From assembly GCF_000015765.1 (NCBI RefSeq), contig NC_008942.1, positions 1 to 64,000 on the forward strand: 64,000 nt of DNA. Reading direction: 5' to 3'. Position numbers and translations under genes: made by a program. The stretch's first letter is position 1. Every line of letters starts with the position of its first letter. Shown in pieces: positions 5,064 to 38,395 of the stretch. Below the pieces are notes generated by a model. The model was given only the letters and a program-made list of their open reading frames with translations. It ran no database searches and was not told where the DNA came from. This DNA is from Methanocorpusculum labreanum Z (GTDB lineage: Archaea > Halobacteriota > Methanomicrobia > Methanomicrobiales > Methanocorpusculaceae).

Positions 5064-7148
5064 ATGGATTTGATCTATCTCGCTCCAATATGTGCCGTTT
5101 TAGGCCTTCTCTTTGCCCTTTATTCCTTCTCTATCGTGAAGAAAGAGGGATCGGGCGATGAGAAGATGCAGAAGATCGCTGCAGCCATTCACCTTGGCGC
5201 AATGGTCTTTCTGAATCGTCAGTATCGTGCAATCGGAGCTTTTGTCGTCGTTATTGCAGTCATTCTCGCTATCCTCATTTCCCCGTGGGCAGCCCTTTGT
5301 TACGTCATTGGTGCAGCTCTTTCGGCAACTGCAGGATATATCGGAATGCACAGCGCAACAAAAGCAAACGTAAGAACAACCAATGCAGCAAAACGCGGAA
5401 TCGCGGACGCTGTGAAAGTCTCCTTTGCAAGCGGCTCGGTCATGGGTATGTCCGTGGTCGGTCTCGGTCTTCTTGGTCTGTCCATCGTGTTCATTCTCCT
5501 TGTAATGATCAACGGCGGATTCGGCAGTGTCGACAATGTTAACATCGTAGTTTCCATTCTTGCCTCCTTTGGTTTTGGTGCCTCGTCAGTGGCTCTCTTC
5601 GCCCGTGTCGGCGGCGGTATCTTTACCAAAGCTGCCGATGTCGGTGCTGACCTTGTCGGCAAAGTCGAAGCAGGCATTCCCGAAGACGACCCGAGAAACC
5701 CGGCAGTCATTGCCGACAATGTTGGTGACAATGTCGGTGATGTTGCTGGTATGGGTGCCGACCTTTTCGAATCCTACGTCGGTTCGATCATCGCATCCAT
5801 GGCGCTTGGTGTTGCAGGTGCAGCATTTGCATCTGAACTCTTCGGCGAAACTATCGCAGCATTAAACCTTATTCTCCTCCCGATGCTCATCGCAGCATTC
5901 GGTATCATTGCAGCAGCCGTTGGAACGCTCTTCGTTCGCACAAAGAAGAATGAGAGTTCCGCAATCCACAAAGCATTCAATACCGGTCTTGTTGTTGCAA
6001 TCATCATCTCCATCATCTCGACATACTGTGTAACGAGTATCCTTTTATACGGTCAGATCGGTATGGGATTCATGTTTGCAGCCCCGCTTGGTATGGGAAT
6101 CTGGTTTGCAACCATCGCAGGTCTTGTTGCAGGTTTCCTGATCGGTCTGATCACGGAGTACTACACTTCGTTCGACTACAAGCCGACCTTAGGCATCGCA
6201 AAATCCTGTCAGACTGGTGCAGCCACTGATATCATCAGCGGATTTGCAAAAGGTATGGAGTCGACCATCTGGCCGGTTCTTATCATCGCAGTCGCCATCT
6301 ACATTGCATACCAGTTTGCCGGCATGTACGGTATCGGTATTGCAGCAGTAGGTATGCTGTCCACCCTTGGTATCTCCCTTGCAGTTGATGCATACGGCCC
6401 GGTCGCGGACAACGCAGGCGGTATCGCCGAGATGTCCCACCAGGATCACTCAGTCCGTGATATCACCGATACGCTTGATGCAGTCGGAAACACGACCGCA
6501 GCAATCGGTAAAGGATTTGCAATCGGTTCGGCCGCTCTTACCGGTCTCGCACTGTTCAGCGCCTACGCTCTTGCAGTCGGCATCGATGCAATCGATATCC
6601 TGAACACGAAAGTCTTCATCGGTATTCTTATCGGCGGTATGCTTCCGTTCCTCTTCTCTGCTCTTACCATGACAGCAGTCGGTGATGCAGCACAGAAGAT
6701 CGTCGTTGAAGTCCGCCGTCAGTTCAAAGAGATCAAAGGCCTGATGGAAGGTACCGCAGAGCCGGACTACACGTCCGCTGTCTCGATCGCTACCAAAGCA
6801 GCTATCAAAAAGATGATCCTTCCGGGTCTTCTCGCAATCGTTGCACCTCTTGCAGTTGGTTTCATCCTCGGTCCGCTGGCTCTCGGCGGTCTCTTAGTCG
6901 GATCCCTTGTTTGCGGTTTCCTCCTTGCAGTCACTATGGCAAATGCCGGTGGAGCATGGGACAACGCAAAGAAGTATATCGAACTCGGTAACTTCGGCGG
7001 AAAAGGCTCTAACGCTCACAAAGCAGCTGTTGTTGGTGACACTGTCGGTGACCCGTTCAAAGACACGTCCGGACCTTCGATCAACATTCTGATCAAACTT
7101 ATGGCAATGATCTCACTGGTATTCGTACCGGTCCTTCTCCTGCTGTAA
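5064..7148 (+). CDS. hppA: Membrane-bound ion-pumping pyrophosphatase
   Basis: A 694-residue polytopic enzyme coupling pyrophosphate hydrolysis to H+ or Na+ export. The catalytic block at about 192-240 is intact, from the [11 protein letters not shown] lysine through the EDDPRN and DNVGDNVGD metal sites. [10 protein letters not shown] at 475-484 has alanine where K+-independent enzymes carry lysine, so a K+-dependent enzyme is expected. The glutamate in ADLFESY sits where Na+-pumping relatives have it, although H+ pumping cannot be excluded. The gene stands alone, with GGAGG 12 bp before the ATG and a T-rich stop region after it. It could recover energy from biosynthetic PPi. Confidence 0.96.
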
Positions 7149-32948: not shown

Positions 32949-33101
32949 AGAAAAACCCGCACGCGGGTTTTTCCCCAGCATTTTTCCAGACGGCGTGCGA
33001 TTCCTGCGCAGGCGATAAGCCGGAGCAGAGCACGACGACGCAAGAAAAATGCGATTCGCGAGAATTCGCGGAGATTCGCGGTTAAATAACTTCATCTATC
33101 C
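32949..33101 (-). repeat. 153-bp inverted repeat, right copy
   Basis: Reverse complement of 31760-31912 with two mismatches. It begins with the palindromic hairpin (32950-32973) and ends with the CGCGAAT triplet array, 4 bp short of the stop of the next minus-strand gene (33106). Spacer between copies is 1,036 bp. Confidence 0.93.
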
Positions 33102-33105
33102 CGAC

Positions 33106-33744
33106 TCACTCCCCCTTCTTCAGCTCATCCATTCTCGCTTTCAGATCGCTTTGAAACGCCTCGAAAGCTTCCTTGATCTCGGCATTTCTCTCATAGCATC
33201 TCTCCCTCCATTGACCAGACGCTTCGCTGTCTTCCTTTTCCTCCTTGTCCGGGATATATGCCAACGCGTAATCGAATGCCTGGTTCATGCAGACGTCGAT
33301 AAAAGTATTTAGACTCTGCAGGACCTTTTCCGGGATGAAGGAGACGTTTGCCTCCGTCATATACTGTATCGTATGGGCTTTTTTCAAAAGATCATCCGAT
33401 CTTTCCCGATGCCATTTGTTTCGTGCTTTTGCGTCGCTCGCCGGAGGCCCGTCTTTCAGCTCCTTATCCGGATGCAGCAGTAATGCCGTCGAATAGCAAT
33501 GAGAAATCACCGGAGCCAGATCCCGATATGCCTGAAGTTCTGGATTCATCATGGCATTCAGCGCCGACTCGGTATTTGCCAGATTGTCCTGGATGTTCAG
33601 CATCTCCGCGATCGACCGTTTCTGGAATCTGGACAGCAGAACGGCCACGGTTATTGAGATCAGGATCCCTATGATCGTCAAACCTATGCTGACTATGCTC
33701 ATATCGATGAGGACGTCACCGATCATAATACTCGTAATCGCCAT
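33106..33744 (-). CDS. Unrecognised protein with N-terminal membrane anchor
   Basis: 212 residues. One membrane helix (about residues 14-37, 'IVSIGLTIIGILISITVAVLL') is followed by a long, charged, mostly helical cytoplasmic region containing Lys/Glu/Arg clusters and likely coiled-coil ends. GGAG precedes the ATG. No catalytic motif is visible. It lies between the right 153-bp repeat and the hairpin array, so belongs to the accessory island. Family unknown. Confidence 0.7.
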   Translation of the reverse strand: MAITSIMIGDVLIDMSIVSIGLTIIGILISITVAVLLSRFQKRSIAEMLNIQDNLANTESALNAMMNPELQAYRDLAPVISHCYSTALLLHPDKELKDGPPASDAKARNKWHRERSDDLLKKAHTIQYMTEANVSFIPEKVLQSLNTFIDVCMNQAFDYALAYIPDKEEKEDSEASGQWRERCYERNAEIKEAFEAFQSDLKARMDELKKGE

Positions 33745-33818
33745 ACACTTCTCCTCGTCTTAGCGTATGATAAACATACGTCTCGTGGAACACGAATAGC
33801 CGGGTCTGCTGAAAAATC

Positions 33819-34338
33819 AGGGTGCAGGTCCAACCTGCTCCCTCGTTTTTTGTTCGTGTATTGGGTGCAGGTCTCAAAAACCTACGTGCTCCCTGATTCT
33901 GCTTTAATTCTCGCTCTTTTTTGAAAAATAAGCGTATATTAGTGGTTTTTGAAGAGGGTGCACATTTTTCCCGAAACTCTCAATATTGTAGTATTAAGGC
34001 TTAGAGAGAGGTTTTAAAAATTTTCCCAGGGTTTTGAAAAAAATGTGCTCCCTGGAAACTTTACTCCCGGTAGGGATCGATCCCTCCAAAACATCGGTGT
34101 CACATTTTTTTCAAAACCCTGGGAAAATTCTCAGATACCTCATTTCACCCCTAAGTACTATACTATTGAGAGTTTCGAAAAAAAACCTGACATGCAGAAA
34201 TAAATCCGTTATATCCCGTATTTTTTTAAAATCAAGCTGCAATAAGCAGTTTTTTGGTGTCACCATCATTTTTCAAAACCTGACACCAAATTCCCTCCAA
34301 AAAAGAAGTGTCACATTTTCCAGAAACCAACGTGACAC
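33819..34338. repeat. Array of related stem-loop elements
   Basis: Stems seen in order: AGGGTGCAGGT/ACCTGCTCCCT (33819-33843); GGGTGCA/TGCTCCC (33863-33893); AGGGTGCACATTTTT/AAAAATGTGCTCCCT (33955-34053); GGTGTCACATTTTTTTC/GAAAAAAAACCTGACA (34097-34193); TTGGTGTCA/TGACACCAA (34254-34289); GTGTCAC/GTGACAC (34308-34338). The first three share AGGGTGCA...TGCTCCCT ends, the last three GGTGTCA...TGACACC ends. Elements overlap, so alternative folds are possible. Confidence 0.8.
33972..34177. repeat. Long inverted repeat pair inside the hairpin array
   Basis: Left arm 33972-34047 and right arm 34101-34177. The outer 14 bases and the inner 29 bases (around TTTTCCCAGGGTTTTG) match exactly, with an imperfect middle. 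The 53-base spacer holds a CGGTAGGGATCGATCCCT palindrome. Confidence 0.8.
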
Positions 34339-34362
34339 CACCCCTCTCATCAAACTCAAAAT

Positions 34363-34393: not shown

Positions 34394-34600
34394 ATGTCAA
34401 ACCGTTACCTCCCGAAAATATCCGGCGTAGAATCCCTCATTCTTGCATTGATCTGCGGCGTTGGCACGGCGATATTCACCCCCTGGTCTCTCGAGTTCGA
34501 CCTCTTTGCACTATTCGGATTGGGATTTCTCATCACCGGCGTATTCCTTCTTCTCAAAAAACGTAACGGCACGAAGGAAAACGATGAAATAAAACAGTAA
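34394..34600 (+). CDS. Small membrane protein, two helices
   Basis: 68 residues. Two hydrophobic helices (about 13-28 and 34-54) are separated by a short acidic turn, with a basic then acidic tail KKRNGTKENDEIKQ. No ribosome site is visible, but a TATA-like element at leaderless distance supports expression. It lies between the hairpin array and the HNH nuclease gene, convergent with the latter (stops 5 bp apart). No family recognised. Confidence 0.6.
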   Translation: MSNRYLPKISGVESLILALICGVGTAIFTPWSLEFDLFALFGLGFLITGVFLLLKKRNGTKENDEIKQ

Positions 34601-36163: not shown

Positions 36164-38395
36164 CTATGAAGATGTCACTTCAGTTGTAGTTTCACTGGAT
36201 ATCGTTGAAGTTGATTTTTCCATCATCATATTATAATGGTCAATTTGATTTAACTTTACAAATATTTGTTTAAATATTTCTAGATATCTCTGAACAGATT
36301 CAGAATCCGGACAGATATCAAAATCATCAAAAATCCCGTGAGAACCGGCATTAAGATACGATAAGAGGGATTTACAAATTATTTTATCAGTTCCTTCAAA
36401 TTGATCTATAACTTTATGATAGTCTACATTTCCTATTATTTTAAAGTATGATTCCAATATTCTTCGCAAAGTATTTTGAATTGCAGGACTGATGTTCGAT
36501 GTATCTTGTATCTCAGACCAAAGTAATGTATATGAATTTTCTATTGGATCCTTATCTTTATTCTCTATTTTAGATATGTTCTGTGCTTTTTTTACCATCC
36601 AAAAACCAGCTATATTGGGATAATCTATTTCTAATCTATATGCTACTTCTTTGTGGAAATAGACATTATGAGTTAAGACAAACACTTGCCGAATTCCATG
36701 ATTATCATTTTTACAGTATTCAAACAGATTCCTCACCAAAGTACTTACAATAAAGAGAACTCCACTATCTAAACTTGAAATAGGGTCATCAACAATCACT
36801 ATTTTGTCATTTTCAAGATTATTTGGGTCACTTTGACCTTGAATAAGATAATAAAAATACAAAAAAGTGATAAAGTTTCTTTCCCCGTCGCTCAATGTAT
36901 CATGAGCATTCTCTCCGTTTGGTCGAATTATCCGATACGTATTCTTATATTCATCATCAGGATTTACATCTAATTTGAAGCCACTAAAGCCAACTTTCGT
37001 TAATATATCCTCAATATCATCAACCGTCTTCGTCACATTTATGAGGTTTTTTTGTTTCTCTGAAATCTCTTTCTTGATATTTTTTATGCGCTCTTGATGC
37101 CCATCAATATTCTTAGTTAAACTAGCCTTTCCTTTTTCAAATCCACTCATTTCCTTCTTATATTCGGTAATTGGATCTATAAGTTCATTAACAAGATATT
37201 GCCAGATTAATTTTTTACAATGCTCTTTCTCATTTTTCAGATCATGTATAATAGCATTATTTTTATTAATTGATACATTTATATTGTCAATATTATCATT
37301 GATATTGTTAATTAAAGGAATCACACTTTCAATTTCCACTGATTTTGATGGAAATGTAATTTTATTTTCAATGATTATTTTGTTTGATTTAAATATTATA
37401 GAAAGTGCCTCCCTGTTTTTCTCGATATCGTTATAATCTAAACCCGGAATTGGGCTATCTATTATGCTATCTAATTTTTCGAGACATGATGAAATATGAG
37501 ATATATAATCTTCTTTCATGTTCTTGAGAGCATTATACTTATTATCAAATGCCTTATCAAAAAATGACTTTATTTCTTTTTGAATTGAAGAGTCAAGTGT
37601 ACGTTGACAATATGGGCATTTTCCATTAGATTTCTCAGCATAACTTACTCCCTCTCTCACCCAATCACTATTATTTAAATATTCAATTAGTTCTCCGATT
37701 TCTGAATCTGAAGTCCCAGTGATTACTTCCATTAATAATGGACATTTTTCAATATCTGAAATATCTTTAACGTCAATTTTGTTGATGGTGCCATATTCTC
37801 TTTTATTATCATTATCGAACGCTGCTATATATCTCGATTTGATGTCATCCAACGAACTAACATTATTCTCATCAAAATTTTCGGATTCTTCCAAGCATTT
37901 TATTGCAAATGTTGTTTTACTTCCTCTAGTTCCAACTAATGCTTTACTATACGTCTCGCCATATTTTTTTTCTTCCCTCCAGCAACGTTCATAAAATATT
38001 TCCACTTTTTTCTGTTTTCTAGTATTTAAATCCTCAATATTCTTATTGCAACCATCAATTTTCTTCTTATGATCATCTATCTCGCCCTGTTTTTTTGCAA
38101 TAAATTCCCGCGCTTCTTTTGATTCCACTCCCAAGGTGAAAATCCCTTTAATAGGATCATCTCTATTAAAATTAGCTTCAATAAATTCTTTGTTGTAAAT
38201 TAAAACAGGTATTTTTCGATTATTTTCCCAGATAATTTTACTATTTATTGATATTGAGCAATCCTTGAGATATTTAGCGAGAGTACTTTTTCCAGATCCA
38301 TTCCCTCCATAGATCATATTGATTTTTTTGGGGAGCATGCATCCCCCTTCACCAGTATAGGTCGCAAGATCCTTGATGTATATTTCTGATATCAT
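36164..38395 (-). CDS. AAA_13 ATPase, RloC/PrrC-like putative anticodon nuclease
   Basis: 743 residues. An ABC-type ATPase is split by a coiled-coil: Walker A GGNGSGKST (30-38), two cysteines CPYC (260-263) that could form a zinc hook, signature LSDGERNF (501-508), Walker B KIVIVDDPISSLD (531-543) and LTHN (574-577). The C-terminal region has R644, E648 and H686. This spacing is close to the R320-E324-H356 catalytic set described for PrrC, but similar residues occur widely in AAA_13 proteins. The gene is far more AT-rich than its neighbours, which suggests recent transfer. A phage-defence tRNA nuclease is the leading idea. Confidence 0.75.
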   Translation of the reverse strand: MISEIYIKDLATYTGEGGCMLPKKINMIYGGNGSGKSTLAKYLKDCSISINSKIIWENNRKIPVLIYNKEFIEANFNRDDPIKGIFTLGVESKEAREFIAKKQGEIDDHKKKIDGCNKNIEDLNTRKQKKVEIFYERCWREEKKYGETYSKALVGTRGSKTTFAIKCLEESENFDENNVSSLDDIKSRYIAAFDNDNKREYGTINKIDVKDISDIEKCPLLMEVITGTSDSEIGELIEYLNNSDWVREGVSYAEKSNGKCPYCQRTLDSSIQKEIKSFFDKAFDNKYNALKNMKEDYISHISSCLEKLDSIIDSPIPGLDYNDIEKNREALSIIFKSNKIIIENKITFPSKSVEIESVIPLINNINDNIDNINVSINKNNAIIHDLKNEKEHCKKLIWQYLVNELIDPITEYKKEMSGFEKGKASLTKNIDGHQERIKNIKKEISEKQKNLINVTKTVDDIEDILTKVGFSGFKLDVNPDDEYKNTYRIIRPNGENAHDTLSDGERNFITFLYFYYLIQGQSDPNNLENDKIVIVDDPISSLDSGVLFIVSTLVRNLFEYCKNDNHGIRQVFVLTHNVYFHKEVAYRLEIDYPNIAGFWMVKKAQNISKIENKDKDPIENSYTLLWSEIQDTSNISPAIQNTLRRILESYFKIIGNVDYHKVIDQFEGTDKIICKSLLSYLNAGSHGIFDDFDICPDSESVQRYLEIFKQIFVKLNQIDHYNMMMEKSTSTISSETTTEVTSS

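Follow-up and report, generated by a model that had tools for sequence, protein, structure and literature searches.

Phage P4 has a Toprim primase and, besides its origin, a second region, crr. As far as the account in PMC4234260 cites it, the winged-helix C-terminal domain of the P4 alpha protein, a P4-family primase-helicase, binds repeated words in the origin. The minimal replicon of the crenarchaeal plasmid pRN1 consists of a small ribbon-helix-helix (RHH)-type repressor gene (orf56), a gene (orf904) for a superfamily 3 (SF3) helicase protein that ends in a C-terminal winged helix and, just 3' of the helicase gene, a 100-bp stem-loop that forms the origin; the sequence of the stem-loop is not conserved between relatives but its flanks are (PMC4234260, PMC3869888). 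In phage-inducible chromosomal islands (PICIs) the origin lies directly 3' of such a gene and has an AT-rich region with a set of iterons on either side (PMC6092414), and the isolated C-terminal domain of Cch2, a helicase of the same family from the staphylococcal cassette chromosome mec (SCCmec), binds its iterons (PMC7581432). Geminivirus Rep, an unrelated HUH rolling-circle initiator and an analogy only, uses cognate short iterons that differ between related viruses (PMC12548392). Here we describe hairpin arrays of the archaeon Methanocorpusculum labreanum Z that unite the stem-loop origin of pRN1 with the iteron origin of PICIs and SCCmec, as stem-loops whose arms are iterons. The window analysed, the first 64 kb of the 1,804,962-bp one-contig genome, holds two of them, A and B, which we take, with a probability of about 85%, to be iteron-type replication-origin modules of small integrated mobile replicons.

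A sequence-only reading of the window had pointed to six consecutive related stem-loops in a noncoding stretch with no gene to explain them. All six are present, and searches of the hairpin stretch gave no convincing gene, no tRNA and no Rfam match; the units, however, are two arrays of about 240 bp in opposite orientation, each with three inverted pairs of a short word, rather than one series. Array A (type 2; 33819..34053, plus strand) has six copies of GGGWGCA: hairpin 1 (33819..33843) has the arms AGGGTGCAGGT and ACCTGCTCCCT, hairpin 2 (33863..33893) the arms GGGTGCA and TGCTCCC, and hairpin 3 (33955..34053) the same two words at its ends and a conserved interior with TTTTTCCCGAAACTC and TTTTCCCAGGGTTTTGA. 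Array B (type 1; 34096..34339, minus strand) has six copies of GTGTCA, one of which, an outer word of hairpin 3 (34096..34194), has decayed to CCTGACATG; the arms are GGTGTCA and TGACACC in hairpin 2 (34256..34287) and AGTGTCA and TGACACC in hairpin 1 (34307..34339). The stem ends are GGGTGCA/TGCTCCC in array A and GTGTCA/TGACAC in array B. A long inverted repeat had also been seen nested among the stems; it is real (29 bp, 100% identity, 34019-34047 with 34101-34129) but adds no extra stem, because it is a by-product of two inverted copies with a common hairpin-3 interior. The helicase gene that accompanies such arrays elsewhere is missing from the window locus except for a short stretch beside array A (33764..33818, plus strand), which is what decay has left of the last part of a type-2 gene. 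Its local alignment to the end of the G012 type-2 helicase gene, array excluded, scores 37 against a maximum of 27 in 500 shuffles.

A DNA search found relatives of the arrays only within the genus, in 7 of 41 genomes, and a profile search over the regions retrieved yielded 24 full arrays, which come from six Methanocorpusculum genomes and from two contigs of metagenome-assembled genomes. Each of the 24 holds six arms of a single word type out of four (GTGTCA in 8 arrays, GGGWGCA in 6, GGGGGCA in 5 and TTGGACA in 5), and the spacers, with TTTTTCCCGAAACTC, TGTAGTAATTAGG and TTTTCCCAGGGTTTTGA, are alike across word types. Immediately 5' of twelve of these arrays stands a helicase gene or a piece from the 3' end of one. 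The two metagenomic contigs (L054, JAQVBZ010000050.1, 1-3164, binned as Paceibacterota; L056, JAQVAY010000066.1, 1-4225, binned as Bacilli) are probably mis-binned, since both carry Methanocorpusculum elements; the helicase pieces on them share 95% identity with the Methanocorpusculum query. The words behave alike in a second helicase clade, which has about 30% identity to the first, its own array layout and the words GTTACC, GTAACC or GTTGCC. Here 19 of 23 arrays are pure in all readable arms, compared with a mean of 0.4 and a maximum of 4 in 5000 shufflings of arms between arrays that disregard relatedness. Relatedness is taken into account by a spacer-only tree (word columns left out), on which at least six concerted word switches are found, for example between the sisters L067/L068 and L196/L197. 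One hybrid array beside a helicase tail (L191, G021:C71, 269-508), in which the first three words are GTAACC and the last four GTTACC, looks like a recombinant or a word switch caught midway.

RNA stems are expected to vary independently of one another and to pass through G-U pairs. Among the 480 word base pairs of the 24 arrays, 466 are Watson-Crick, none is G-U and 14 are other mismatches; in array A every left arm is GGGTGCA and every right arm TGCTCCC, so that all three stems contain the same T-T mismatch. An undescribed structured noncoding RNA of six related stem-loops, as had been suggested for the window, would agree with the fold stability of the stretch (z = -11.5 and -10.7 for the two strands, against 20 dinucleotide shuffles) and with the co-change of paired positions inside each stem. 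Both strands, however, are equally stable, and the separate stems carry one word, are switched together and follow the codons of the helicase tail (see below), instead of showing covariation that runs through G-U and is independent between stems. The lack of G-U pairs and the sharing of one word by three separate stems favour a DNA-binding protein, and on the G-U count, the identity between stems and the Rfam result we rejected the RNA, to which we leave hardly any chance.

The complete element, which persists elsewhere in the M. labreanum genome and in relatives, comprises an RHH/zinc-ribbon gene, a gene for a helicase of about 606-628 aa and the array of about 240 bp immediately 3' of it. 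By its profile and fold matches the array-linked protein is a P4/D5-type (SF3) helicase: it scores 32.2 bits for D5_N (cut-off 22.4), matches PHROG DNA primases at E 1e-51 and, in a full-length model that is good for the helicase core only, matches the folds of monkeypox virus E5 (poxvirus E5/D5) and African swine fever virus PrimPol (E 5e-13). No catalytic primase domain, either Toprim or archaeo-eukaryotic primase of the pRN1 prim-pol type, was found by Pfam and NCBIfam in its residues 1-120. The RHH/zinc-ribbon gene adjoins the helicase gene in G000, G020 and G012 (two copies) and was not found in every copy of the element; its product matches an Arc-like PHROG weakly (E 4.5e-4). A short word is repeated several times directly 3' of a putative initiator gene, the arrangement of an iteron origin of the P4, SaPI and Cch2 type, and word arrays 3' of the helicase gene also occur throughout the order Methanomicrobiales and in some phages. 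Genome-wide searches with L087 that included the N-terminal primase part pulled in unrelated primases, and only matches to the helicase part were used. Beside the complete element of M. labreanum, genes for a putative methyltransferase, an 847-aa kinase/ATPase and a CARF-like protein (L021 2064-6781) form a possible defence cluster.

The element resembles pRN1 in having an RHH-type regulator beside a replication gene, an SF3 helicase with a winged-helix-like C-terminus as the product of that gene, and a stem-loop directly 3' of it. In pRN1, by contrast, the replication protein contains a prim-pol domain and the origin is a single large stem-loop described as lacking iterons, whereas Methanocorpusculum has three hairpins with iteron arms, and its RHH gene is divergent and not cotranscribed. 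Like the P4 alpha protein the helicase is of the P4 family, but no primase domain is detected in it, the inverted pairing of the words is strict, and the word switches with the tail as one cassette. The Rep-ori of PICIs, including the Staphylococcus aureus pathogenicity islands, and the Cch2-ori of SCCmec belong to bacterial, integrase-bearing or cassette elements, for which the available parts of PMC6092414 and PMC7581432 report neither orphan origins nor swaps of a tail-word cassette. Against pRN1, PICIs and Cch2 together, the Methanocorpusculum arrays are set apart by the lack of a detected primase domain, the strict inverted pairing, the tail-array cassette and the helicase-free copies.

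The coupling of word and helicase is seen in the last 16 or so codons of the helicase gene, which vary with word type while the helicase body does not; tail type equals word type in 10 of 10 aligned sequences. Nucleotide identity breaks sharply just past the GMRVYGF(D/E)E codons. Between G003 (type 2) and G020 (type 1) it is 93-94% in the body, 50% in the tail codons and 52% in the array, and between G003 and G012b, both of type 2, it is 79-87% in the body, 94% in the tail and 87% in the array. From these breaks it follows that tail and array move together, and the pair behaves as an exchangeable cassette. Helicase tail fragments in L008 (near 1460) and L010 (near 1837) have nearly the same start point, TTAAGGG.ATG, which suggests that recombination favours one site where the cassette begins.

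The words could also be operator sites of a transcriptional regulator, for instance the RHH/zinc-ribbon protein of the element, and have no part in a replication origin. Inverted words are typical for operators and the RHH gene adjoins most complete helicase genes, but type-1 and type-2 elements have RHH proteins with the same putative DNA-contact strand, QILIRLPK, and on this ground the protein was rejected as the word reader. The arrays moreover lie 3' of the helicase gene, outside the divergent promoter, and their words track helicase tail residues, which makes operator sites very improbable. The idea of a regulator-binding array was right as to kind, a protein-binding array, and its reader is most likely the replication helicase.

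How the helicase might read the word was approached with 24 pairs of helicase and word that represent about a dozen families, in a table made by hand after the pattern had been noticed and with one main word taken for arrays with two forms. The words across these helicases have the form NNNN-CA(C/G), and the four wing residues that precede the conserved Arg in the last predicted strand were compared with the four variable bases. Wing tetrapeptide and variable word half are correlated over 225 between-family pairs (r = 0.66), a value reached in none of 5000 permutations, also when these were made within groups. In a scan of single positions, -5 (r 0.54) and -2 (r 0.57) stand out, -3 is weak (0.19) and the other positions range from -0.28 to 0.18. 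With Arg at -5 the second word base, N2, is a pyrimidine (6/6), and with any other residue there it is G (18/18). Eight further phage families have a readable word, of which six fit (L107, L113/L120, L274, L281, L289 and L290) and L276 and L102 do not, the words of L107, L113/L120 and L102 having been seen before the rule was formed; L288 and L095/L287 are ambiguous. That residues -5 and -2 follow the variable word half suggests a recognition code, and we regard the rule as likely but not proven.

We propose that a winged-helix-like domain at the C-terminus of the helicase binds a word of the form NNNN-CA(C/G), that helicase multimers would be loaded at the three inverted pairs so as to face in opposite directions, and that these would then melt the A/T-rich region inside the long hairpin 3. 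Helicase tail and array lie side by side and are swapped as one cassette, so that the specificity would change along with them as a unit. At the window locus the helicases are gone, and what is left are two putative origins that differ in specificity and have a head-to-head arrangement. Several observations weigh against origin modules of mobile replicons. One of the six words of array B is decayed, as noted above; the score for the C-terminal domain of P4-family primases (TIGR01613) is 105.8, just below the curated cut-off of 108.7; and the C-terminal domain is modelled at low confidence (predicted local distance difference test, pLDDT, about 33-60; 46 for the isolated domain, so that no structural claim is based on that prediction). 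No integrase was seen in the element unit, no close free viral form turned up in an IMG/VR scan, and the plasmid collection gave only distant matches of 23-26% identity and no free plasmid form. The helicase superfamily does not carry such arrays universally: among more distant viral loci a significant array lies within 400 bp 3' in only 9 of 73, and the viral relatives L270-L273, L275, L277 and L284 have none directly 3'.

Arrays outnumber helicases, three chromosomal sites have been used repeatedly, and the tail fragments of L008 and L010 begin at nearly the same point, all of which would suit dispersed nonautonomous repeats resembling miniature inverted-repeat transposable elements, with the hairpins as transposase ends and no role in replication. 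We regard such repeats as highly unlikely: neither a transposase nor a target-site duplication was seen, each unit has three internal inverted pairs instead of one terminal pair, and the word is linked to a helicase, not to a transposase. The earlier idea that the window holds remains of a repeat-based element survives in the two arrays and the decayed helicase gene end, but it does not include the HNH and RloC-like genes next to the arrays, because the arrays occur elsewhere without them.

Compared with the same site in G016, the words of the two window arrays are changed at 1/42 and 1/36 positions and the spacers at 29/190 and 29/205 (P 0.014 and 0.039), about sixfold less divergence in the words. 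Tandem type-3 and type-4 orphan arrays that three species have upstream of rio1 (L022 9828-10376, L034 6979-7527 and L027 9702-10278), which lack a helicase and have intact words, show the same tendency (type-3 words 0/42, spacers up to 58/190), and in helicase-linked arrays the words likewise diverge more slowly than the spacers. The words are thus under constraint, or were so until recently. G000, G016 and G012 each have all four word types, mostly without a helicase, in shared sites near the chromosomal origin, and in G000 and G016 all array sites lie within 86 kb of orc1; as the positions are three shared sites, these are only about three independent observations. The chromosomal origin itself is marked in the window by repeats resembling origin recognition boxes (TTCCACTCGCAACAAAGGGGTGGGGG) at 1-480, upstream of orc1/cdc6, which do not match the array words.

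Array A is flanked by a gene of unknown function (33106-33744, minus strand) and array B by a small membrane-like open reading frame (34397-34600, plus strand). The small HNH protein beyond it (PF01844; 34606-34893, minus strand) has a weak type IV restriction match, and M. parvum has a close relative of it at the same site (L057 near 5336-5611). The RloC-like protein (36164-38395, minus strand) is an AAA_13 ATPase (PF13166, E 2e-229) that matches the PADLOC candidate system PDC-S06 (811 bits) and has a further match, PrrC-like and C-terminal, of 52 bits. A separate dispersed repeat, with the ends TTCGCGG...CCGCGAA and GGTGTGGA, lies beside several array sites (window 33000-33090, L021 9740-10110 and L020 1020-1120).

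Many archaeal and viral replicons initiate with D5/P4-type helicases, and how these choose an origin is not well understood. In the case of pRN1 the origin sequence appeared unconserved, and the motif that is bound was not identified; the Methanocorpusculum arrays suggest that stem sequence varies for a reason, the stems being the recognition word and the word following a few wing residues. If so, the origin word would be predictable from the protein, with Arg at -5 calling for a pyrimidine as the second base of the word, and a cassette of about 300 bp could be used to swap specificity. For the host, the orphan arrays raise the testable, if rather unlikely, idea that they are kept as extra origins near orc1 or as decoys that titrate the helicases of word-matched invading replicons, in which case iteron incompatibility would have been turned into immunity.
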